A stretch of 21,221 nucleotides of DNA, taken from a virus. This document shows positions 2,948-20,032 of the stretch, one piece after another. The stretch lies in IMG/VR virus record IMGVR_UViG_3300047586_000186, positions 1-21,221 of that record; one strand, given 5' to 3'. A program made the translations under genes and the position numbers. The notes under the pieces were generated by a model. That model saw only the letters and a program-made list of their open reading frames with translations. It ran no database searches and was not told the DNA's origin. Each line of letters starts with the position of its first letter. The first letter of the stretch is position 1.

Positions 2948-4060
2948 TCAGCGCGAAGCCCGCTCGTCGATGGCTGCACGAAGCCGAGCCCAATCTGCCT
3001 CGCCCTTCACCGGCGGGGCCTCCTTTGGCATTGGGCCGGCCGGTTCATCGGCGGGCGTCGCGGCGAGCATGGCTTCAGCCTCGGCCAGCTGGCCAGCGAT
3101 GGCGGCGGCAATGACCGGCGCATCTTCCCGAGCGGCTCGCTGAGGATCGAAATCGATCGCGACGAGTCGATAGCCCGACGCCCCGGCCGCCATTCGGGAC
3201 TGGACCTTGCCCGACGCGACACGGGCGATCGCCTGATCGAGCGTGCCGATGCGATCGGCCAGCCCCGCGGCTACAGCTCGCTTCGCTGGCAGCGCCAGGC
3301 CCTCGCCGTAGCCGTCGGTCACCGCTGAGACTGACACGCCCCGCCCCTTGGCGACATCGGCGACGAAGAGCGAGTAGAAGTCGTCGACGTCGGCCTGAAC
3401 GTGGGCGAGCGCCTCTTCCGACAGCGGCTCGAACTCGTTGCGTTCGGTCTTGAACTTGCCCGCGCTGATGAGCGTCGTCTTGACGCCGGCCTGCTCGTCG
3501 GCCACCGAGAAGTCCTCATGCACCGTGAAGAGGCCGATCGAGCCGACCTGACCCGACGGGCTGACCATGACCTCGTCGGCCTGGCAGGCGAGCCAGTAGG
3601 CGGCGCTCGCGCACATTGTGTCGGCCACGGCAACGATCGGCTTGGTGCCGCGGGCTGCTCGGATCTGAGCGGCCATCTCGGGAACGCCGTCCACCGTGCC
3701 GCCGGGCGAGTCGACGTCGATCACGATGCCCTTGACCTCGGGGCTGTTGAGGGCCTGGGAAAACGCGGCTCCGAAGCGATCCAGGGGCGCGCCGCCGGAC
3801 ATGTCGCTCATCATCGAGACGCGCTGGCAGATGATGCCGTAGAGCGGGATCACGGCGATCGAACCGGCCGACTGCGCGCCGGTCCGCGGGCCGTTCGCCG
3901 CGGCGGCCATCGCGAGTTGCTCGTCGAGCTCGTCGCGGCTCAGCGTGACGCCCCCGACGCGACGCGAGACGATCTCGCACAGGGTGTCCATCGTGGAAGG
4001 CAGGATGGCCCAGGCATGGTCGCGCACGAAGGCAACGACGTGGGCGTAGCGGATGCTCAT
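2948..4060 (-). CDS. Prohead maturation protease, S49 (SppA/SohB-like) family
   Basis: 370 residues. In tailed phages this serine-lysine peptidase assembles inside the prohead and removes the capsid delta domain. Visible marks: GIVIDVDSPGGTVDG (residues 111-125, the conserved beta-strand and turn), the nucleophile Ser152 in MCASAAYWLA, and the general base Lys204 in ISAGKFKTERN. The 52-residue Ser-Lys spacing equals that of bacterial SppA. VGSIGLF (172-178) is another family motif. About 90 C-terminal residues are Ala/Glu/Pro rich and could act as a small scaffold. ATG at 4060 overlaps the portal stop as ATGA and has a strong GAGGAGG ribosome site inside the portal gene, so it is co-translated with the portal. 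Confidence 0.92.
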   Translation of the reverse strand: MSIRYAHVVAFVRDHAWAILPSTMDTLCEIVSRRVGGVTLSRDELDEQLAMAAAANGPRTGAQSAGSIAVIPLYGIICQRVSMMSDMSGGAPLDRFGAAFSQALNSPEVKGIVIDVDSPGGTVDGVPEMAAQIRAARGTKPIVAVADTMCASAAYWLACQADEVMVSPSGQVGSIGLFTVHEDFSVADEQAGVKTTLISAGKFKTERNEFEPLSEEALAHVQADVDDFYSLFVADVAKGRGVSVSAVTDGYGEGLALPAKRAVAAGLADRIGTLDQAIARVASGKVQSRMAAGASGYRLVAIDFDPQRAAREDAPVIAAAIAGQLAEAEAMLAATPADEPAGPMPKEAPPVKGEADWARLRAAIDERASR

Positions 4061-5673
4061 GGGATTGCCTCCTCGGCATTGGCGGCCAGGTCGGCCAGAT
4101 AGGGGACTCGTTCGATTTGCCAGGTAGCCAGAGCCGCAGCGCCCTGGCTGAGCAGATCGTCGACCTGGGCATCGCAGTAGAGCCGCGCGTCGCCCGCCGA
4201 GATCTGCAGGACCCGCGCGACGAAGGCCGCGTGCTCGTCGTAGAACTTGCGGACGCCCGCCTCGAAGGCTGCCTCATCCGCAGCGGTCCGGAGGGCGAGC
4301 TTCGACATCACCGCGAGTTCCTTGTGAATGACGCGTTGGGCCGCGTCGCGGGCGAAGGCTGCGAGACGTTGGGGCGGCACTTCCCCGACAGGATTGCCCT
4401 GGCCGCTCTGGTCTTCCTCGTCCTGATCGCTGGGGCTGCTCGCAGGCACCAATGTCTGGCCAGCGGCGTCCTCGGTGCCCATATTGAGCGGCGTCCAGTA
4501 TTCCTTGCCCCGGCCGTCCGATCGCGGGTTCATGTCTTCGAGCGTCCGGATCTCGTCGGCGTTCAGCCAGCCATCGAGTCGGCCGTTGTGGTAGTAGGTG
4601 CTCCGCGCGACCGAGTCGCCGCGCATCAGGCCCTGGATCTTGAACCGCGCGTAGTAGAGCCAGGGAGCGATCATCAGCTGCTTGGCGATCGCCTGCTCCC
4701 AGCGGACCGCCCACGGCATGAACCCGTCGATCACGAAATCCATGCCCTGGACCTCGATGTTGTTGTTCGTCGAGCGCTCGAGGCGCGCCAGCTTGTGCGG
4801 CGGAATGGCGAACCAGCGGGCCCAATCGTCGACGGTCCACTGCATCGTGGCCACGAACTCGGCATCGGCCACCGTCATGCCGATCTGCTGCCACTTCATG
4901 CCCTCATCGAGAAGGGCGATGCCGCCGGCGTTCTCGGGTCCGGCGTGGACCTTCTCGAGCTCCTGGCGCAGCCGTTCACGGCCCGGGCCCGCGATGACCT
5001 TGGGGCTCTCGACGACAGCCGAGGGCCGGGCGCCATGGGCGAAGGTCGAGGCCCCGTAGCGCATCAGGGCGAGATTCATCCCGATGGACTCTTTGGCGAC
5101 GTCGATGATCGACAGGCCGCCGTAGGGCCCGCGGATATGGAACATGTCCTCGCCCAGGATCGCGCGCTTGGTGCCGTCGGGCTTTGCGAACCAGAAGCGC
5201 CGACCACCGCCGGGCAACGGCTCGCCGTTCTTGGGAGTGATCCGGTCCGGGTGCAACGGCACCAGCTGATCGACGGCGCCACGGGGTCCGGCGATCTTCT
5301 CGCTGTATCCGTGGCCGCGGATGAGGGCGTGGTTCATCATCATCTCGCGCCACTGGAAGCTGTCCTGGTCGTCGTTGGGGCTGTCGTGCAGGACGTGGTA
5401 GAGCGGATGGGCAGGGTAGGGGTCGCTGCCGCCGTCGGGCCGGTTGCGGTAGATGACGAGCGGCAGCTTGGCGGTCGTCGAGGAGAGCAGCTCGACGGCG
5501 CGCCAGAACGCGGAGATGCCCAGAGCCGTCTCGGGACTGACGACGACGTTACCGACCATGCCGCCGCCCGCCCACGTGTCGTAGTTGCGATCGTCGAGCG
5601 GATTGAGCATCGTCGGGGCGACGTCGGCGAAGACGCGGCCGACCTCAGCGACTGCGCGAGTGATGAGGCTCAT
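4057..5673 (-). CDS. Portal protein, HK97 family
   Basis: 538 residues. It forms the ring at one vertex of the head through which DNA is packaged and ejected. Family features include the N-terminal ISAFWRAVELLSSTTAKLPL (about 53-72), then LYHVLHDSPNDDQDSFQWRE and MMMNHALIRGHGYSEKI. The core has FAIPPHKLARLERSTNNNIE (about 287-306), which matches the FGVPPxxLG.....Nxe signature, followed by helices of the wing and clip. The C-terminus beyond about residue 400 is a variable charged extension. ATG at 5673 has CAGGAGG upstream and overlaps the preceding small membrane gene as ATGA; its own stop overlaps the protease start in the same way. Confidence 0.93.
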   Translation of the reverse strand: MSLITRAVAEVGRVFADVAPTMLNPLDDRNYDTWAGGGMVGNVVVSPETALGISAFWRAVELLSSTTAKLPLVIYRNRPDGGSDPYPAHPLYHVLHDSPNDDQDSFQWREMMMNHALIRGHGYSEKIAGPRGAVDQLVPLHPDRITPKNGEPLPGGGRRFWFAKPDGTKRAILGEDMFHIRGPYGGLSIIDVAKESIGMNLALMRYGASTFAHGARPSAVVESPKVIAGPGRERLRQELEKVHAGPENAGGIALLDEGMKWQQIGMTVADAEFVATMQWTVDDWARWFAIPPHKLARLERSTNNNIEVQGMDFVIDGFMPWAVRWEQAIAKQLMIAPWLYYARFKIQGLMRGDSVARSTYYHNGRLDGWLNADEIRTLEDMNPRSDGRGKEYWTPLNMGTEDAAGQTLVPASSPSDQDEEDQSGQGNPVGEVPPQRLAAFARDAAQRVIHKELAVMSKLALRTAADEAAFEAGVRKFYDEHAAFVARVLQISAGDARLYCDAQVDDLLSQGAAALATWQIERVPYLADLAANAEEAIP

Positions 5674-13189: not shown

Positions 13190-13402
13190 CTATCCTCCCG
13201 AAGTGTTAGGCACGATCAGCCAGCCGAGCACCTCAGCAGCCTGGCTGGCACAGTCCACATCGAGCTTGCGGTACAGGTTCTGGCAGTGGTTCTTCACCGT
13301 CTGCTGACTGATCCCGAGCTCGTAACCCGCCAGCTTCTGCGATCGATGGCGCAGACAGGCGGCGAAGACCTGGAGCTCGCGGGCGGTGGGCGGACGGCTC
13401 AT
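13190..13402 (-). CDS. Stand-alone LuxR/GerE-type helix-turn-helix protein, second copy (70 aa)
   Basis: Single-domain DNA-binding protein: PTARELQVFAACLRHRS, then KLAGYELGISQQTVKNHCQN with a canonical TVKNH recognition helix, then LYRKLDVDCASQAAEVLGWL. It shares the LGxS/T turn, the KLxV end and the unusual CAxxAAExxGWLxxP tail with the protein at 2732-2944, so the two are paralogues, but this copy is closer to the LuxR consensus. It has no regulatory domain. ATG 13402 overlaps a preceding 51-residue frame as ATGA. It stands at the likely early/late boundary and is a candidate late-gene regulator. Confidence 0.8.
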   Translation of the reverse strand: MSRPPTARELQVFAACLRHRSQKLAGYELGISQQTVKNHCQNLYRKLDVDCASQAAEVLGWLIVPNTSGG

Positions 13403-13854: not shown

Positions 13855-14336
13855 CCGCCTCCCGTCTTGCGCAGCTTCGCGGCTAGGGCGTGGAGGGCGG
13901 CGGCAGGGGCCATCGGCTCGGTTTGAACCATGCGCGAACCCCGTTTCCTGAGCCGGGCATTTGAGGCGGTGGCGATGCAGTCATCGGGGCCCCACCAGGT
14001 AACGGCGAAAGACCAGTCCCGGTCGGGCATGGCCTTGATCGCTGCCTCGGCCTCGGCCCATGCGGCATCGAGAGAGTCGGGGGCTGGAGGAAGCATGGCG
14101 AGGGCCTGCCCCCGCAAGTCGCCGATCAGTTGGGCTTTCCGGTCGTCCATCATCGTCCTCCAATCGCTTCGTCCAGCGCGCTCACGCAGTAAAACGAGGA
14201 ATGCCGCACGTTCCGCGTCGGCTCCGGCCTTCGCGGCCGTATAGCCGTTGCGGGCCTCAACCCGATCTAACTCAGCCATGTCGTCTTCGGTGACGCCCAA
14301 GGCATCAAGGATGGCGCGGCGGTTGAGTTCAGCCAT
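13851..14336 (-). CDS. Hypothetical helical protein (161 aa)
   Basis: ATG 14336 follows GGAGGC and overlaps the upstream stop as TGATG. It starts MAELNRRAILDALGVTEDDM, continues as charged helices (RVEARNGYTAAKAGADAERA), then has a distinct region AWAEAEAAIKAMPDRDWSFA and VTWWGPDDCIATASN. An internal MMDDRKAQLIGDL could be a second start. It ends in a basic helix. No family recognised. Confidence 0.6.
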   Translation of the reverse strand: MAELNRRAILDALGVTEDDMAELDRVEARNGYTAAKAGADAERAAFLVLLRERAGRSDWRTMMDDRKAQLIGDLRGQALAMLPPAPDSLDAAWAEAEAAIKAMPDRDWSFAVTWWGPDDCIATASNARLRKRGSRMVQTEPMAPAAALHALAAKLRKTGGG

Positions 14337-14596
14337 CACTTGCCTCCGATCGCTGCATCGAGCGCATCGGCCGTTGGGCGGGCTCGCTCCTCGATCGCCT
14401 GGCGCAGGTAGACGACCAGGTCGAGCGCTTCCTGGTAGGCGTCCACCAGGGCATCGCGCCCGTTGTGGGCCTGCAGCGGTGTGCCGTAACGCAGACGGCC
14501 AACCTGGTCGCGTTCGACCATGTCGGCGATGACCAGCTCCCAGATCGGGGGGCCAGCGGTAAGGACCGGGGCGGGCTGGTCGCTGATCTTGCTCAT
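14336..14596 (-). CDS. Small helical protein, possibly MazG-like NTP pyrophosphohydrolase (86 aa)
   Basis: Begins MSKISDQPAPVLTAGPPIWE, followed by LVIADMVERDQVGRLRYGTP and LQAHNGRDALVDAYQEALDL, then VVYLRQAIEERA. The block xADMxxRDxxGRxRYGTPLQxxNGRDAxxDAYxEALDLxVYLR is one I know from many phage small proteins. The DAYQEALDLVVYLR helix resembles those of all-alpha NTP pyrophosphohydrolases, but the full MazG EExxE motif is not visible. Its ATG overlaps (ATGA) the stop of the VRR-NUC remnant upstream, showing that it once followed an intact nuclease gene. Confidence 0.6.
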   Translation of the reverse strand: MSKISDQPAPVLTAGPPIWELVIADMVERDQVGRLRYGTPLQAHNGRDALVDAYQEALDLVVYLRQAIEERARPTADALDAAIGGK

Positions 14597-14640
14597 CGCA
14601 GCACCGCCGCGATACGGTCGAAGTCGGACGGCCGGAAGAG
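14593..14640 (-). pseudogene. C-terminal remnant of a split VRR-NUC gene
   Basis: The minus strand ends an open frame with LFRPSDFDRIAAVLR and a TGA that overlaps the next gene as ATGA. This matches the end of the intact VRR-NUC protein at 15236-15559 (LFRPSELPQIAELLR). Upstream of LFRP the frame runs into the opposite-strand HNH gene and stops making sense. It fits the far end of the gene whose N-terminus survives at 15985-16089. Confidence 0.7.
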
Positions 14641-14642
14641 GG

Positions 14643-14651
14643 TGCTATAAT
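14643..14651 (+). promoter_or_regulatory. Extended -10 promoter of plus-strand HNH gene
   Basis: TGCTATAAT is a perfect extended -10 element (TGn plus TATAAT), the only consensus sigma-70-type -10 I noticed in the window. Seven bases separate it from the ATG at 14659, so transcription should start at or next to the A of the start codon, giving a leaderless mRNA. There is no good -35 match (GTCGGA at the expected distance). Confidence 0.65.
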
Positions 14652-14652
14652 G

Positions 14653-14666
14653 GGTGGCATGCCACC
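14653..14666. promoter_or_regulatory. 14-bp perfect palindrome over the HNH start codon
   Basis: GGTGGCATGCCACC is its own reverse complement and is centred on the ATG of the plus-strand HNH gene, directly after its -10 box. It could be an operator for self-repression or a 5' fold limiting initiation. Part of the symmetry could be chance. Confidence 0.35.
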
Positions 14667-15243
14667 TCTTCACACACCCGAGAGCTTCTGGCGATCGGTG
14701 GCCAAGTCCAACGGTTGTTGGATCTGGACCGGCCATACCGATCGCGGTGGCTATGGCGCGCTGCGATACCAAGGCCGCATGGTCAAGGCTCACATCCTGG
14801 CCTATGAACTCATCGTCGGGCTGGTGCCGGAAGGCCTCGAACTGGACCATCTTTGTCGTGTCCGAACGTGCGTCAACCCGGCTCATCTGGAGCCGGTGAC
14901 CCACCAGGAGAATGTCAGACGCGCCTTCGCGCTCAAGACTTCCTGCCGGAATGGACACCCCTACGCTGATGCCAACAATCTGGTCATCAACGCGGCGGGA
15001 GCCCGTCTCTGTCGGCTGTGTAGGAACAGCTTCGACGCGGCCCGCCGGCGCCGAGTGCGGCGCGACCGGGGATTGCAGACGCCGCGCGGCGAGCAGCACC
15101 ACAACGCCAAGCTGACGGAGGCTCATGTCCGCGCCATCCGAGCAGCGAGCGGAACGCTTGACGAGGTTGCCGCGCGATTTGGCGTGAGTCGAAGCAACGT
15201 CGGCCTCATTCGACAGCGCAAGTCCTGGGGTTGGCTCACCTGA
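14659..15243 (+). CDS. HNH homing-type endonuclease with C-terminal DNA-binding domain
   Basis: 194 residues, the only plus-strand gene. It begins MPPLHTPESFWRSV and CWIWTGHTDRGGYG, the usual start of this HNH group. The catalytic block is LELDHLCRVRTCVNPAHLEP (Asp63, His64, Asn73, His76). A zinc module follows (C96-x3-H, C118-x2-C). Residues about 148-192 (KLTEAHVRAIRAASG, DEVAARFGVSRSNVGLIRQR) form a helix-turn-helix that would fix target specificity. The start is ATG 14659 because the upstream in-frame ATG at 14650 overlaps the -10 box. It lies where a VRR-NUC gene is interrupted, on the opposite strand to all neighbours and with its own promoter, as expected for a mobile endonuclease gene. 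Its stop overlaps the intact VRR-NUC stop convergently by 8 bases. Confidence 0.9.
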   Translation: MPPLHTPESFWRSVAKSNGCWIWTGHTDRGGYGALRYQGRMVKAHILAYELIVGLVPEGLELDHLCRVRTCVNPAHLEPVTHQENVRRAFALKTSCRNGHPYADANNLVINAAGARLCRLCRNSFDAARRRRVRRDRGLQTPRGEQHHNAKLTEAHVRAIRAASGTLDEVAARFGVSRSNVGLIRQRKSWGWLT

Positions 15244-15559
15244 GAAGCTCGGCAATCTGAGGCAGTTCGCTGGGCCGGAAGAGATGCGTCTCGACGCCCG
15301 GACAGGCGTGGAGCATCGAGAGCCAGCGGTCCTGATGCGGCGTCGTCTTGCCGTTCTCGCGCTTGAGCTCGATGAAGACGAGCCGCGGCGGTCGGCACAA
15401 CGCGAGATCCGGCCAGCCGCGTTCGCTCCACTTGGAGAGCATCGGGTGATACAGAGCCCAACCGAACAGCTTCGCTAGATCAGTGACCTGCCTCTGAAAG
15501 TCGCGTTCGGTGATAGCGGGCAGCTTGGTCAGTGAGGAGTGCCGTGCGGTAGCCCGCAT
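15236..15559 (-). CDS. VRR-NUC domain nuclease, intact copy (107 aa)
   Basis: A PD-(D/E)XK-superfamily nuclease; family members act on branched or structured DNA. Catalytic residues are visible as Asp51 (SERGWPDLAL), Glu64 and Lys66 (LVFIELKREN) and Gln76 (TTPHQDRWL), the usual VRR-NUC arrangement. The N-terminus MRATARHSSLTKLPAITERD, FQRQVTDLAKLFGW matches the fragment at 15985-16089 (KLPALSEANFQRQVLDLARILGW), and its C-terminus matches the fragment at 14593-14640. GGGAGG touches the ATG at 15559, too close for an ideal ribosome site; I place the start by homology to the fragment. The first 80 bases overlap the HNH gene upstream in another frame. Confidence 0.85.
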   Translation of the reverse strand: MRATARHSSLTKLPAITERDFQRQVTDLAKLFGWALYHPMLSKWSERGWPDLALCRPPRLVFIELKRENGKTTPHQDRWLSMLHACPGVETHLFRPSELPQIAELLR

Positions 15560-15953
15560 CCTCCCGGTAGCGCCGGCGACGTTGCCCGTCCCGACAGGAT
15601 CGGCAGTATGCGAGCGTCCCATCGCGCTTGAACTGAAGGTTCGTCCGGTCATGCTGGCACCGCAGCCGATGTGGTTGCCGTCGCACGTTTTCCGCGCCTG
15701 TCACTGGTTCGAGGTGCGCTGGATTGCAGCAGGCGGTCACGCGGCAAAGATGGTCCAGATGCAGACCGTCGGGGATCGGGCCTACCACAAACTCGTAGGC
15801 CAGCCGGTGGGTATAGAGCACGACGCCGCCCCGGCCGCCAGCGCCAATCCGACCATAGCCCGCCTTGTCGACGAACCCTGTCCATAGCCAGCAATCGCCC
15901 TTCTGAACCTTCGGCCAGAAGCGGGTCGCAAGTGGGGTGAAGCGTGGTGGCAT
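15480..15953 (-). CDS. HNH homing-type endonuclease, shortened C-terminus (157 aa)
   Basis: Paralogue of the plus-strand HNH protein: MPPRFTPLATRFWPKV, CWLWTGFVDKAGYGRI, then LHLDHLCRVTACCNPAHLEP (Asp67, His68, Asn77, His80) and the zinc module C99-x-H and C117-x2-C. It lacks the C-terminal helix-turn-helix; instead its last 26 or so residues are encoded by DNA that is also the start of the VRR-NUC gene in another frame. The start is ATG 15953 rather than an in-frame ATG at 15977, because a -10 box lies between them. It interrupts the reading frame of a VRR-NUC gene after the LGW codons. Confidence 0.88.
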   Translation of the reverse strand: MPPRFTPLATRFWPKVQKGDCWLWTGFVDKAGYGRIGAGGRGGVVLYTHRLAYEFVVGPIPDGLHLDHLCRVTACCNPAHLEPVTGAENVRRQPHRLRCQHDRTNLQFKRDGTLAYCRSCRDGQRRRRYREDAGYRTALLTDQAARYHRTRLSEAGH

Positions 15954-15962
15954 CGTATGTGT

Positions 15963-15971
15963 ATTGTACCA
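15963..15971 (-). promoter_or_regulatory. Extended -10 promoter of minus-strand HNH gene
   Basis: Reading the minus strand, TGGTACAAT is an extended -10 (TGn plus TACAAT, one mismatch to TATAAT). Nine bases separate it from the ATG at 15953, so the transcript should be leaderless or nearly so. It mirrors the promoter of the other HNH gene in form and spacing. Confidence 0.55.
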
Positions 15972-15984
15972 TCCCATGAGCGGA

Positions 15985-16089
15985 CCAACCGAGGATACGC
16001 GCCAGGTCGAGTACCTGCCGCTGGAAGTTGGCTTCAGACAGCGCCGGCAGCTTGTCGGCTCGGGAGTGGGCGGCGCGCTCGGTGCTCAT
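15985..16089 (-). pseudogene. N-terminal remnant of a split VRR-NUC gene
   Basis: ATG 16089 overlaps the previous stop as ATGA. The first 35 residues (MSTERAAHSRADKLPALSEA, NFQRQVLDLARILGW) match the intact VRR-NUC N-terminus, then the frame runs into the HNH gene and continues only as an out-of-frame translation. With the C-terminal remnant at 14593-14640, which keeps the downstream ATGA, these look like the two ends of one original gene. Confidence 0.7.
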
Positions 16090-16244
16090 GTGGGCGTTTT
16101 CTCGTCCAACGGTGGAGCGATGTCCATCGTTCCGGGTCGTGCCTCGGGGGTGGCGATGTGGGTACCGTCCAATAGCGGAAGGGTTGCCTTCGTCGTCTCC
16201 TTGGGCTCCGGCGCGAGCAGCGCGGCGAGAAGATCATCATTCAT
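16086..16244 (-). CDS. Small acidic protein of unknown function (52 aa)
   Basis: MNDDLLAALLAPEPKETTKA, then TLPLLDGTHIATPEARPG and an acidic end. ATG 16244 overlaps the end of the repeat-protein gene by 8 bases, and its stop overlaps the VRR-NUC start as ATGA. The ALLAPEP segment and its DNA (23 bp at 16202-16224) recur at the end of the gene at 17747-18490, so part of this gene was duplicated or exchanged. No function assigned. The long proline-repeat extension of this frame upstream is an out-of-frame reading of the neighbour. Confidence 0.5.
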   Translation of the reverse strand: MNDDLLAALLAPEPKETTKATLPLLDGTHIATPEARPGTMDIAPPLDEKTPT

Positions 16245-16833
16245 GGTCGTTCTCGAAGATCGAGGGGCTCTCCGGCGTCCAGCGACAGCCACATTGTTCG
16301 GCGTGAAGGGCCAGGATTGCGGGGTAGTTGGCGGCGTAGGCCTTGGTCCCGGCGGCGTAGGCCTGCCTCCTGGCAGCGTCGGCCTTGGTCCGGGCGGCGT
16401 CGGCCTTGTTCCAGGCGGCGTAGGCCTTGGCCCAGGCGGCGTCGGCCTTGTTCCAGGCGGCGTAGGCCTGCCTCCTGGCGGCGTTGGCCTTGGTCCCGGC
16501 GGCGTCGGCCTTGTTCCAGGCGGCGTAGGCCTTGGCCCAGGCGGCGTTGGCCTTGGTCCCGGCGGCGTAGGCCTGCCTCCTGGCAGCGTCGGCCTTGGTC
16601 CAGGCGGCGTCGGCCTTGTTCCAGGCGGCGTAGGCCTTGGCCAAATCCGGGATGGACGAAAGATCGGCGGGCCTGAAGCGCAGCAAGCGCTCGGGACGCT
16701 CGCTCTCCGGCTTGACGGTGTTGATATCGTGCAAACGGCGGGCGGCACTCTCCGGCGTCTCGGGGCTCAGGCAGACACCGTGGTGCCAGTGGTGCCAGGC
16801 GGCCTCGACGTTGGTCCAGTCGTAGTCAGTCAT
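16237..16833 (-). CDS. Heptad-repeat helical protein with LHAEQC..W end (198 aa)
   Basis: ATG 16833 has ACAGGAG upstream. Residues 1 to about 62 form an N-terminal region (MTDYDWTNVEAAWHHWHHG, PERLLRFRPADLSS). Then come fifteen 7-residue units of the form x-x-K-A-(Y/D/N)-A-A, arranged as three copies of a 35-residue block (WAKAYAA, WNKADAA, xTKAxAA, RRQAYAA, xxKAxAA), which should make one long Ala-rich helix. The C-terminus is ILALHAEQCGCRWTPESPSIF. The combination of Ala/Lys/Tyr helical repeats and an LHxxxCxxxW...IF end is one I recall from other phage and bacterial proteins of unknown role. It may be structural or scaffold-like. Confidence 0.75.
   Translation of the reverse strand: MTDYDWTNVEAAWHHWHHGVCLSPETPESAARRLHDINTVKPESERPERLLRFRPADLSSIPDLAKAYAAWNKADAAWTKADAARRQAYAAGTKANAAWAKAYAAWNKADAAGTKANAARRQAYAAWNKADAAWAKAYAAWNKADAARTKADAARRQAYAAGTKAYAANYPAILALHAEQCGCRWTPESPSIFENDHE
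16330..16644. repeat. Fifteen 21-bp tandem repeats, organised as three 105-bp blocks
   Basis: On the plus strand each 21-bp unit starts GGCGGCGT(A/C/T)GGCCT. Units 2, 7 and 12 are alike (GGCCTGCCTCCT ending), units 4, 9 and 14 share a GGCCTTGTTCCA ending, and units 5, 10 and 15 a GGCCTTGGCC ending. The array is therefore a 5-unit, 105-bp block copied three times (16330-16434, 16435-16539, 16540-16644). It stays in frame in the minus-strand gene. Slippage or unequal recombination is the likely origin. Confidence 0.9.
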
Positions 16834-16849
16834 CGGTCGGCTCCTGTAG
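16831..16849 (-). repeat. Repeated start-site module, copy 1
   Basis: The 19 bases on the minus strand, CTACAGGAGCCGACCGATG, contain the ribosome site and start codon of the heptad-repeat gene. They are identical to those at 18488-18506 before another gene, so the same translation-start module was copied. Confidence 0.7.
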
Positions 16850-16873
16850 ATGGTTTGATAGGGTTCCGGCGCT

Positions 16874-17042
16874 TCATTCATCGGCCTCCATCCACGCCTC
16901 GACCGCATCGGCCAGTTGGATCAGGGCCTCGGGGATCGTTTGTCCTCCGGCGACGCAGCCGGGCATTGAGGGCACCTTCGGCCGTCCACGAACCGTCCTC
17001 CAGTTCGGGATAGACACGAACCGTGAAATCACACCAGTGGTC
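16874..17042 (-). pseudogene. HicB-like domain interrupted by a one-base frameshift
   Basis: In one frame the minus strand reads HWCDFTVRVYPELEDGSWTAE; in the frame one base off it continues VPSMPGCVAGGQTIPEALIQ and LADAVEAWMEADE to a stop at 16874. Joined, this is a classic HicB-type antitoxin fold (YPELEDGSWTAEVPxxPGCVAxGxTxxEAL). An extra G near 16976 (GAAGGTG for GAAGTG) breaks it. It may be a real mutation or a sequencing error. No HicA toxin gene is seen beside it. Confidence 0.55.
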
Positions 17043-19310: not shown

Positions 19311-19808
19311 TTACTTCCAGTCCTTCAGCCAGGCAATATTGTCATCACAGGTCCGGCAGCGGTCTGAGGGCGTGCGCCCATCGGCGTTCTCCCAGACGCT
19401 AACAACCGTAAGATGGCCGGAGCAACAGAGGCCCACCCATCCTCTTATCCAATCCCATGAGTCTTTACCGTGCAGAAGAAGGCCAAAACCATTCGAATAG
19501 ACTAGCCAACAAAACGGTTCCTCAAGGCTATTGAAGAGTACACGCACCTTGGTGGCAAAATCGTCGATTAGTTGGTGCCTGGCTTCTCTGTCATCTAGCC
19601 ACGGTTTGACTTCGATGTAAGTCCTCTCTCCCACCCTGAAGTCTGGGATATACATGCCCTCCTCGTAACGGAATATGCTCGGTTCGTACTTCCATTTGAG
19701 GCGTCCGTAATCCATCCACTCAGCTATATGCGCCTCAAGTCGGGAGGCCATCTGCACCCCGTGGTAGGCAGTCGGCTTGGCCTTGATTGCGTAGGGGTAA
19801 GTTCTCAC
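19311..19808 (-). CDS. PD-(D/E)XK nuclease (165 aa)
   Basis: Starts at GTG 19808, which overlaps the previous stop as GTGA and has AAGGAGG upstream; the ORF itself is open further. N-terminus MRTYPYAIKAKPTAYHGVQM, ASRLEAHIAEWMDYG. The catalytic core is KYEPSIFRYEEGMYIPDFRV followed by ERTYIEVKPW, giving Asp56, Glu66 and Lys68, the PD...ExK signature of restriction-like and TnsA-like nucleases. A C-terminal CRTCDDN may bind zinc. It lies directly upstream of the replication gene and is likely a recombination or DNA-processing endonuclease; the exact substrate is unknown. Confidence 0.75.
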   Translation of the reverse strand: MRTYPYAIKAKPTAYHGVQMASRLEAHIAEWMDYGRLKWKYEPSIFRYEEGMYIPDFRVGERTYIEVKPWLDDREARHQLIDDFATKVRVLFNSLEEPFCWLVYSNGFGLLLHGKDSWDWIRGWVGLCCSGHLTVVSVWENADGRTPSDRCRTCDDNIAWLKDWK

Positions 19809-20032
19809 GCCGCGCCCTCCTTCTCGCGCCGGTACCACATCGCGCGGGCCTTAGCCTCAAGTGTTAGGCGTACGGTGCGCGGCGAACAAACCCCCTCCAT
19901 CCACTCGTACTCACAGTCGCGGCAGGGTGACTCGTGCCGTTGCGAACCGCACCAGAAGGCGTATTCCTTGGCGGTCATGCAGGGCAGGGTCAATTCGTCT
20001 GTGAGGGTGGGTAGGGTCCCGGCGTGGCTCAT
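19805..20032 (-). CDS. Small Cys-rich protein (75 aa)
   Basis: ATG 20032 overlaps the preceding stop as ATGA; the open frame upstream is not used. Cysteines fall at LPCMTAKEYAFWCGS, SPCRDCEYEWMEGVC, so five Cys including one CxxC could hold zinc. The C-terminus is a basic helix (RLTLEAKARAMWYRREKEG). It resembles small zinc-binding phage proteins of unknown role. Confidence 0.6.
   Translation of the reverse strand: MSHAGTLPTLTDELTLPCMTAKEYAFWCGSQRHESPCRDCEYEWMEGVCSPRTVRLTLEAKARAMWYRREKEGAA

Follow-up and report, generated by a model that had tools for sequence, protein, structure and literature searches.

The IMG/VR record IMGVR_UViG_3300047586_000186, whose 21,221 bases make up the whole window analysed here, contains a VRR-NUC nuclease gene on which two separate HNH homing elements appear to have settled, each with a substitute gene end and each pushing a native end outward. 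We put the probability of this reading at about 0.58. The record is apparently part of a tailed phage, with terminase, portal, head protease and major head protein genes recognised by PHROGs. On its minus strand the genes lie in the order p223, p52, FN, HNH1, VRR', HNH2 (on the opposite strand), FC and p86, where VRR' is an intact VRR-NUC gene between the two HNH genes, and FN and FC are N-terminal and C-terminal VRR-NUC fragments (Table 1). The anatomy is clear: the reading frames are intact, both native ends have been displaced, and the same anatomy is found at other genes.

The identity of the two short fragments was established with position-specific score matrices (PSSM) made from relatives only and run over windows in all six frames. 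Among approximately 30,000 windows scored for the N-terminal end, the intact copy (61.2) and FN (50.0) were the top two and the next non-VRR window reached 1.1; among approximately 32,000 scored for the C-terminal end, FC (35.5) and the intact copy (26.5) came first and the next non-VRR window reached 10.2. Both fragments therefore stand far above chance, and both lie in the expected frames. In a tblastn search FN matched the relative L005 at 78% over 23 amino acids (E 4e-8), and L005 is the closest relative of FN and FC alike (18/24 and 11/15 residues). The ATG of FN, at 16089, forms an ATGA overlap with the stop of p52, and homology ends at approximately 15979-15985. Both fragments start or stop at the 5' boundary of an HNH gene, at opposite ends of the nuclease gene, with the couplings to their neighbours kept. 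The whole catalytic core is absent from FN and FC and is supplied by VRR' alone.

A preliminary description of this DNA had proposed that N- and C-terminal VRR-NUC pieces, still ATGA-coupled to their neighbours, enclose an HNH gene, an intact VRR-NUC gene and an opposite-strand HNH gene. The sequence and the PSSM scores (50.0 vs 1.1 and 35.5 vs 10.2) bear out the pieces, and open reading frames (ORFs), Pfam and PHROGs bear out the order. It also holds that the pieces come from opposite ends of a single VRR-NUC gene, since they are in frame, coupled to the neighbours and both closest to the same relative. The further proposal, a mobile unit carrying its own replacement nuclease, stands only in part: HNH genes do separate the fragments and an intact copy remains, but a single unit with a whole nuclease is less well supported, because the core of VRR' groups with FC and not with its own C-terminal end.

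The grouping of the core with FC is seen in several ways. The alignment of the relative L001 with VRR' covers 15529 to 15273; beyond that point L001 matches FC (86% nucleotide identity over 42 nt), not the 3' end of VRR'. FC also agrees better with the family than do the final 11 codons of VRR', whose fit is poor: downstream of LxRP, FC has an average nucleotide identity of 62% to family members and the VRR' C-terminal end one of about 49%, and the correlations with the profile of the VRR' core are 0.90 and 0.15, respectively. Maximum likelihood was used to compare the four possible linkages of the core with the fragments or with the present N- and C-terminal ends of VRR' (VN and VC), all on one data set and taking the best of three seeds; the log likelihoods (lnL) were -4581.2 for FN+core+FC, -4582.8 for VN+core+FC, -4586.5 for VN+core+VC and -4588.1 for FN+core+VC. 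At the C-terminal end FC is thus favoured over VC by 3.8-6.9 lnL, and in controls a wrong double linkage was ahead by 5.3 or more in 1/44 pairs.

Single codons and base composition point the same way. The Trp of LWRP is found in 21/21 relatives, and Phe (TTC, giving LFRP) occurs only in VRR' and FC, within an identical CTCTTCCGGCC. Likewise VRR' and FN both use GGT in the GW motif (GGT-TGG), a codon present in 0/21 relatives. The G+C content at third codon positions (GC3) is 0.67 for the N-terminal and 0.64 for the C-terminal end of VRR', 0.69 for HNH1 and 0.73 for HNH2, compared with 0.88 for the VRR' core, 0.76 for FN, 0.82 for FC and 0.74-0.88 for the other phage genes, so that the ends of VRR' are nearer to the HNH genes than to the core or the fragments. 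From these comparisons of sequence there is moderate support for the view that the VRR' core was originally joined to FC, and not to the present C-terminal end, and for the corresponding swap of the C-terminal end; a swap of the N-terminal end, where VRR' and FN share 63% nucleotide identity, is plausible on weaker evidence. The 8-bp repeat TCGGTTGG, with its GGTTGG, was considered as the exact crossover on the N-terminal side, a proposal that has been weakened and does not pin the point. Just past the repeat FN may read GWSA where VRR' reads GWAL, so the crossover on this side, if there was one, would lie downstream of GGTTGG.

If HNH elements replace gene ends, they should leave HNH genes flanked by two versions of one gene end. 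We scanned the flanks of 169 distinct HNH loci for same-strand matches at the protein level, with the expectation taken from unrelated pairs, and found 8 flanking duplications of at least 28 bits (1.05 expected) and 12 of at least 26 bits (2.58 expected). Because some matches were of low complexity, the individual cases were inspected, leaving three clear C-terminal cases (L186, L187 and L226) and three clear N-terminal ones (L096, L156 and L281). In L226 a Sipho_Gp157 gene, matched over positions 1-162 of 162, is followed by the HNH gene and then by a displaced C-terminal end (LIPGVEVTRSQRLEIR vs IVPGTEVTRGTRLEIK); in L187 the target is a gene of a Holliday-junction-resolvase family (IIDWQVFKELIEGSDYE vs IIDWEVFKELIRDSDYE). 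At the exonuclease-family gene of L186, QSARDGGPGCPG is encoded by two copies whose 36 nt differ only synonymously, and here the displaced copy is fused to the HNH C-terminus. Among the N-terminal cases, a DNA methylase (L096) has its displaced N-terminal end fused to the HNH protein with the intact gene after it (MTAVVLRGDARRLPLP vs MTAIVIRGDAAHLPLP), L156 concerns a small cysteine-rich protein, and in L281 the two versions read MPEITFRLPG and MPDLTFRLPG. Like FN and FC, the displaced copy overlaps a neighbouring gene where this was checked, on the 3' side in L186 and L226 and on the 5' side in L096; that of L187 overlaps the next ORF. An endonuclease gene between an intact target and a displaced end is therefore common to FN-HNH1-VRR', VRR'-HNH2-FC and six further loci.

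The remaining candidates were set aside as not being, or not clearly being, ends of target genes. L100 possibly reflects an HNH-associated zinc finger, L148 is a short coiled-coil-like match, and L009, L195, L257, L285 and L094 are weak or of low complexity. Three others were not counted as clear cases. In L163 (1676-3239) two tandem HNH-like genes are each preceded by a similar leader, possibly a stacked cluster like the WHO clusters of yeasts. In L190 (1-870) the N-terminus of one gene is present in two versions (MTLEETPIIEAPVVAKQLAPRKLQVTRLSSE and MNTEQVLEEISPLPIAKQLAPRRIQVTRLNSE) with an antisense HNH gene between them, and the second, intact copy runs off the contig. In L284 (1950-2464) VNLSDARTELGDR is fused to the HNH protein and followed by MNLSDARAEVGERGF, but the frame of this second copy stops after 15 codons.

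Halves of the arrangement are also seen beside VRR-NUC genes themselves. An HNH_3 gene directly adjoins the VRR gene at two distinct loci, with a displaced fragment at neither: in L008 it is convergent at the VRR stop, the position of HNH2, and in L132 it lies upstream and is fused in frame to VRR, the position of HNH1. The L132 product (3491-4306) is a single protein of 271 amino acids with an HNH_3 endonuclease and a VRR-NUC domain (Pfam 9.2e-17 and 5.4e-5). In the related VRR-NUC phages L008 (5996-9470) and L009 (5996-9413) a block of an HNH gene and a 346-aa gene is shifted relative to a 480-aa gene; the C-terminal part of the HNH protein differs, and the HNH genes stand at the rearrangement boundary.

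The locus most likely arose as follows. Originally p52, a single VRR-NUC gene of the PD-(D/E)XK type and p86 would have formed one ATGA-coupled operon. A pair of HNH homing endonuclease genes, related to each other but distinct and each equipped with its own putative -10-like promoter, would have homed into opposite ends of the nuclease gene. Either element would abut the working gene with its 3' end, HNH2 bringing a new C-terminus and HNH1 a new N-terminus. Each event would begin with a cut by the HNH protein at a conserved site close to one end of the uninterrupted gene, presumably near the LWRPSD codons for HNH2 and near the GWxxYHP codons for HNH1, and the break would be repaired from a co-infecting phage bearing the element. 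Intragenic recombination would then join the recipient's core to the donor's end with the frame kept open, the HNH gene coming along, and the recipient's own end would be left outside, still coupled to the neighbouring gene. Because its end is now different in sequence, the chimeric gene would presumably resist that nuclease.

A number of observations weigh against this history, or against parts of it. The segments compared are short (63 and 33-45 nt), and for the N-terminal end exchanging the linkage alters lnL by only +1.5 or -1.6, favouring neither FN nor VN. Controls on single ends had modest power, the wrong linkage being chosen in 6/22 pairs for the N-terminal and 9/22 for the C-terminal end. 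Protein likelihoods do not discriminate between the linkages, nor do profile scores (154.4 for VRR', 154.0 for the joined native gene and 158.5 for VN+core+FC), and the GWSA that FN may have beyond the repeat belongs here as well. HNH2 reached only 21.9 bits in the flank-duplication scan and is antisense to its target gene, unlike the HNH genes of L186, L187 and L226. Finally, searches of the collections with terminase, p86, HNH1, HNH2 and VRR yielded no uninterrupted sister locus, and no close kin of the phage was present in them. Among 50 records examined for VRR_NUC, 47 of them bearing p86, there were three weak matches, none above the cut-off; since this VRR family was at none of the p86 loci, the sister locus was not found.

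It might be supposed that HNH1-VRR'-HNH2 moved as one block, a cassette or 'homing endonuclease gene (HEG) island' whose foreign VRR-NUC cargo replaced the native middle. VRR' and the fragments do differ in 37-42% of nucleotides, the N-terminal end and core of VRR' match L001 continuously, HNH1 and HNH2 share both their MPP..TP start and a -10-like motif, and phages are known to have essential genes bracketed by HEGs, whose mobilisation as cargo has been proposed (PMC10448857). Yet the core is linked with FC and not with the C-terminal end of VRR', none of the 21 relatives has the TTC and GGT codons that VRR' shares with the fragments, and the GC3 of the VRR' ends is unlike that of their own core. 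Elements with a single side exist at other genes, so that no cassette is needed, and among approximately 24 VRR loci there was no second HNH-VRR-HNH block to suggest a conserved unit. The linkage of the core with FC, the separate half-arrangements and the one-sided duplications elsewhere mean that the locus is better accounted for by two elements replacing gene ends than by one cassette, which we consider unlikely. A mixed history is about equally unlikely; in it, co-conversion with HNH1 would have brought the N-terminal end and some of the core, or the whole of it, and HNH2 would have replaced the C-terminal end only, in a separate event. It draws on the VN+core+FC linkage, which is only 1.5 lnL below the best and has the best profile score; the GGT codon common to VRR' and FN, and the lower GC3 of the VRR' N-terminal end relative to the core, speak against it.

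Degenerate gene pieces are common in phages, and the locus could in principle owe nothing to homing: VRR-NUC would have been duplicated, in tandem or ectopically, and then have decayed, with HNH genes inserting in the spacers by chance. The HNH genes that adjoin otherwise complete VRR genes without fragments in L008 and L132 would suit such a course of events. It is nevertheless very improbable in our view, as each fragment meets the 5' boundary of an HNH gene, the two at different gene ends and both still coupled to their neighbours, and the pattern recurs beside unrelated genes above chance. Scarcely credible is a split gene that functions in pieces or is rejoined by splicing (an intron, an intein, or split subunits as in Aeh1 nrdA/mobE). 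Genes split by phage HEGs can yield products that reassemble (PMC2988022), but FN and FC lack the catalytic core, which is present only in VRR'. An Rfam search of the window gave no match that would point to a group I intron, nor any other, and a Pfam scan of the window found no intein domain.

Table 1. Features of the VRR-NUC locus and its neighbours in the window
Feature	Position	Strand	Remarks
p52, upstream neighbour	16086..16241	-	ORF; stop overlaps FN start (ATGA)
FN, displaced VRR-NUC N-terminal fragment (MSTERAAHSRADKLPALSEANFQRQVLDLARILGWSA)	15979..16089	-	PSSM and tblastn
TCGGTTGG, left copy of 8-bp match common to FN side and VRR'	15985..15992	-	
TGGTACAAT, extended -10-like element	15963..15971	-	9 nt before HNH1 ATG
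HNH1, HNH_3 endonuclease	15480..15953	-	157 aa from MPPRFTP; ORF open to 15977; Pfam HNH_3 4e-14, phrog_826 4e-43
VRR', intact VRR-NUC gene	15236..15559	-	start codon uncertain, ORF open to 15652; Pfam VRR_NUC, phrog_93
N-terminal end of VRR', putative replacement 5' end brought by HNH1	15466..15532	-	overlaps HNH1 3' end
TCGGTTGG, right copy, in VRR'	15458..15465	-	
CTCTTCCGGCC, left copy of 11-bp match flanking HNH2 element (LFRP)	15273..15283	-	
C-terminal end of VRR', putative replacement 3' end brought by HNH2	15236..15272	-	poor family fit, GC3
HNH2, HNH_3 endonuclease with C-terminal helix-turn-helix-like part	14656..15243	+	195 aa as taken; ORF from 14650; Pfam HNH_3 1.6e-13, phrog_826 1.2e-52
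TGCTATAAT, extended -10-like element	14643..14651	+	7 nt before HNH2 ATG (ATGCCACC)
CTCTTCCGGCC, right copy, at FC start	14630..14640	-	
FC, displaced VRR-NUC C-terminal fragment (LFRPSDFDRIAAVLR, then stop)	14593..14640	-	PSSM; ATGA overlap with p86 start
p86, downstream neighbour	14336..14596	-	start overlaps FC stop (ATGA); phrog_7609 1.3e-15

HNH1 and HNH2 are 42% identical and both belong to HNH_3, with DH...N...H intact and LDHLCRVxxCxNPAHLE in each. For HNH1 a start at 15953 is more likely than one at 15977. The 3' end of HNH1 overlaps the 5' coding end of VRR', and the HNH2 stop falls inside the last codons of VRR'. The sequence TGNTANAAT occurs only twice in the 21,221 bases, both times before an HNH gene (0.18 expected; two copies in 0/100 shuffles), for which reason each HNH gene may carry its own putative promoter, possibly a leaderless one. 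A promoter conserved across the HNH family was rejected, as TGnTAnAAT near the start is confined to the two HNH genes of this window. No intrinsic terminators were found between 13800 and 16800.

VRR' scores 23.6 bits against Pfam VRR_NUC (5.6e-5), marginally below the cut-off of 23.8, and matches the phrog_93 endonuclease at 4.8e-12. It has the domain with the PD...ExK catalytic residues, and WPD and ELK are conserved in A1. Alignment-based scans placed this VRR subfamily in 24 viral loci and one Chloroflexi bin; the core YHPxLSKWSERGWPD is invariant in its ten closest members, and the closest relative of VRR' is L001 (76% at the amino acid level). Searches of solved structures with both family profiles gave no match.

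As to the neighbours, p52 comprises 51 residues and a stop by its ORF coordinates and had no match in a Pfam search, and p86 is a common phage gene of unknown function with 68 viral relatives. A long repeat rich in Ala, Lys and Asp (AYAAWNKADAAWTKADAARRQ) marks p223 (16237-16908, minus strand). Repetitive proteins of different kinds are encoded at other loci too, immediately upstream of VRR-NUC in both L120 and L121 and downstream of the HNH gene in L186. A second nuclease-like gene (19311-19838, minus strand) matches the phrog_945 endonuclease (9.6e-7) and the phrog_9019 Holliday junction resolvase (3.7e-6), with no match in Pfam. The phage also encodes a stand-alone LuxR-type (GerE) helix-turn-helix protein of 70 amino acids (13190-13402, minus strand; Pfam 1.2e-10), and a similar protein is found in L024, approximately 700 nt upstream of p86.

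It is an even bet, in our opinion, that phages harbour a widespread and undescribed class of HNH homing elements that replace gene ends, swapping 3' or 5' ends of targets such as nucleases, resolvases and methylases, and that both ends of one nuclease were replaced here by two of them. To avoid harm, a homing gene in a useful gene usually needs an intron or an intein; a substitute gene end is a third solution, as reported for WHO elements of yeasts and for fungal mitochondria. If found repeatedly in phages at both ends of genes, it would explain how free-standing HNH genes settle in compact phage operons without breakage. It would also account for phage gene ends with a history unlike that of their cores and for short orphan ends beside HNH genes. 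The duplicated gene end flanking such an element is a signature that can be sought genome-wide and can predict the target sites of HNH proteins.

The nearest parallel is provided by the WHO elements of Torulaspora and Lachancea yeasts, whose homing yields a chimeric FBA1 gene, a WHO gene and a displaced 3' fragment of FBA1 (Coughlan et al. 2020, PMC7282813). There too the endonuclease gene has on one side a full-length target whose 3' end comes from the donor and on the other the recipient's displaced 3' fragment; homing replaces the gene end, and resistance has been proposed (PMC7282813). WHO elements, however, encode an intein-zinc-finger protein related to HO, in yeast, with FBA1 as the main target and the 3' end only. 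The present locus has phage HNH proteins, both gene ends and one antisense HNH gene. Comparable mobile ORFs (mORFs) occur at atp6, atp9, cox2 and nad3 in Glomus mitochondria, where the hybrids are transcribed (Beaudet et al. 2013, PMC3630166), and a mobile ORF at atp6 of Allomyces is cited in that paper. In these an endonuclease ORF with a foreign C-terminal end makes a hybrid gene and leaves the native C-terminal end downstream, but the enzymes are of the LAGLIDADG or GIY-YIG type, the setting is mitochondrial and only C-terminal ends are concerned (PMC3630166).

Among phages, the ShiLan domain of actinobacteriophage DNA methylases is likewise an HNH insertion in a gene, which begins with 11 residues similar to the sequence that flanks the far side of the insertion site (Arsenault et al. 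2025, PMC11855218). It differs in being an internal in-frame insertion read through by the methylase, and the portion of the paper available describes no displaced gene end. In the intronless homing of the T4 seg and mob genes and in HEG islands, free-standing HEGs convert flanking genes and can bracket cargo, but a substitute end together with a displaced native end is not described in the portions available (PMC2988022, PMC10448857). Substitute or displaced ends, and a 5'-end version, were absent from the available portions of the phage literature searched (PMC2988022, PMC10448857, PMC11855218, PMC12724721), which is weak evidence because most subscription journals lay outside its coverage. 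Within this literature the phage version, its 5'-end mirror image and the presence of both ends on one gene appear to be new. To our knowledge, replacement of 5' ends would be without precedent in systems of this sort. Both the HNH and the VRR-NUC proteins belong to known families, and the mechanism resembles that of WHO elements and mORFs; the elements are not members of those families, HNH1 and HNH2 being HNH_3 proteins and not intein-like endonucleases with a zinc finger related to HO.

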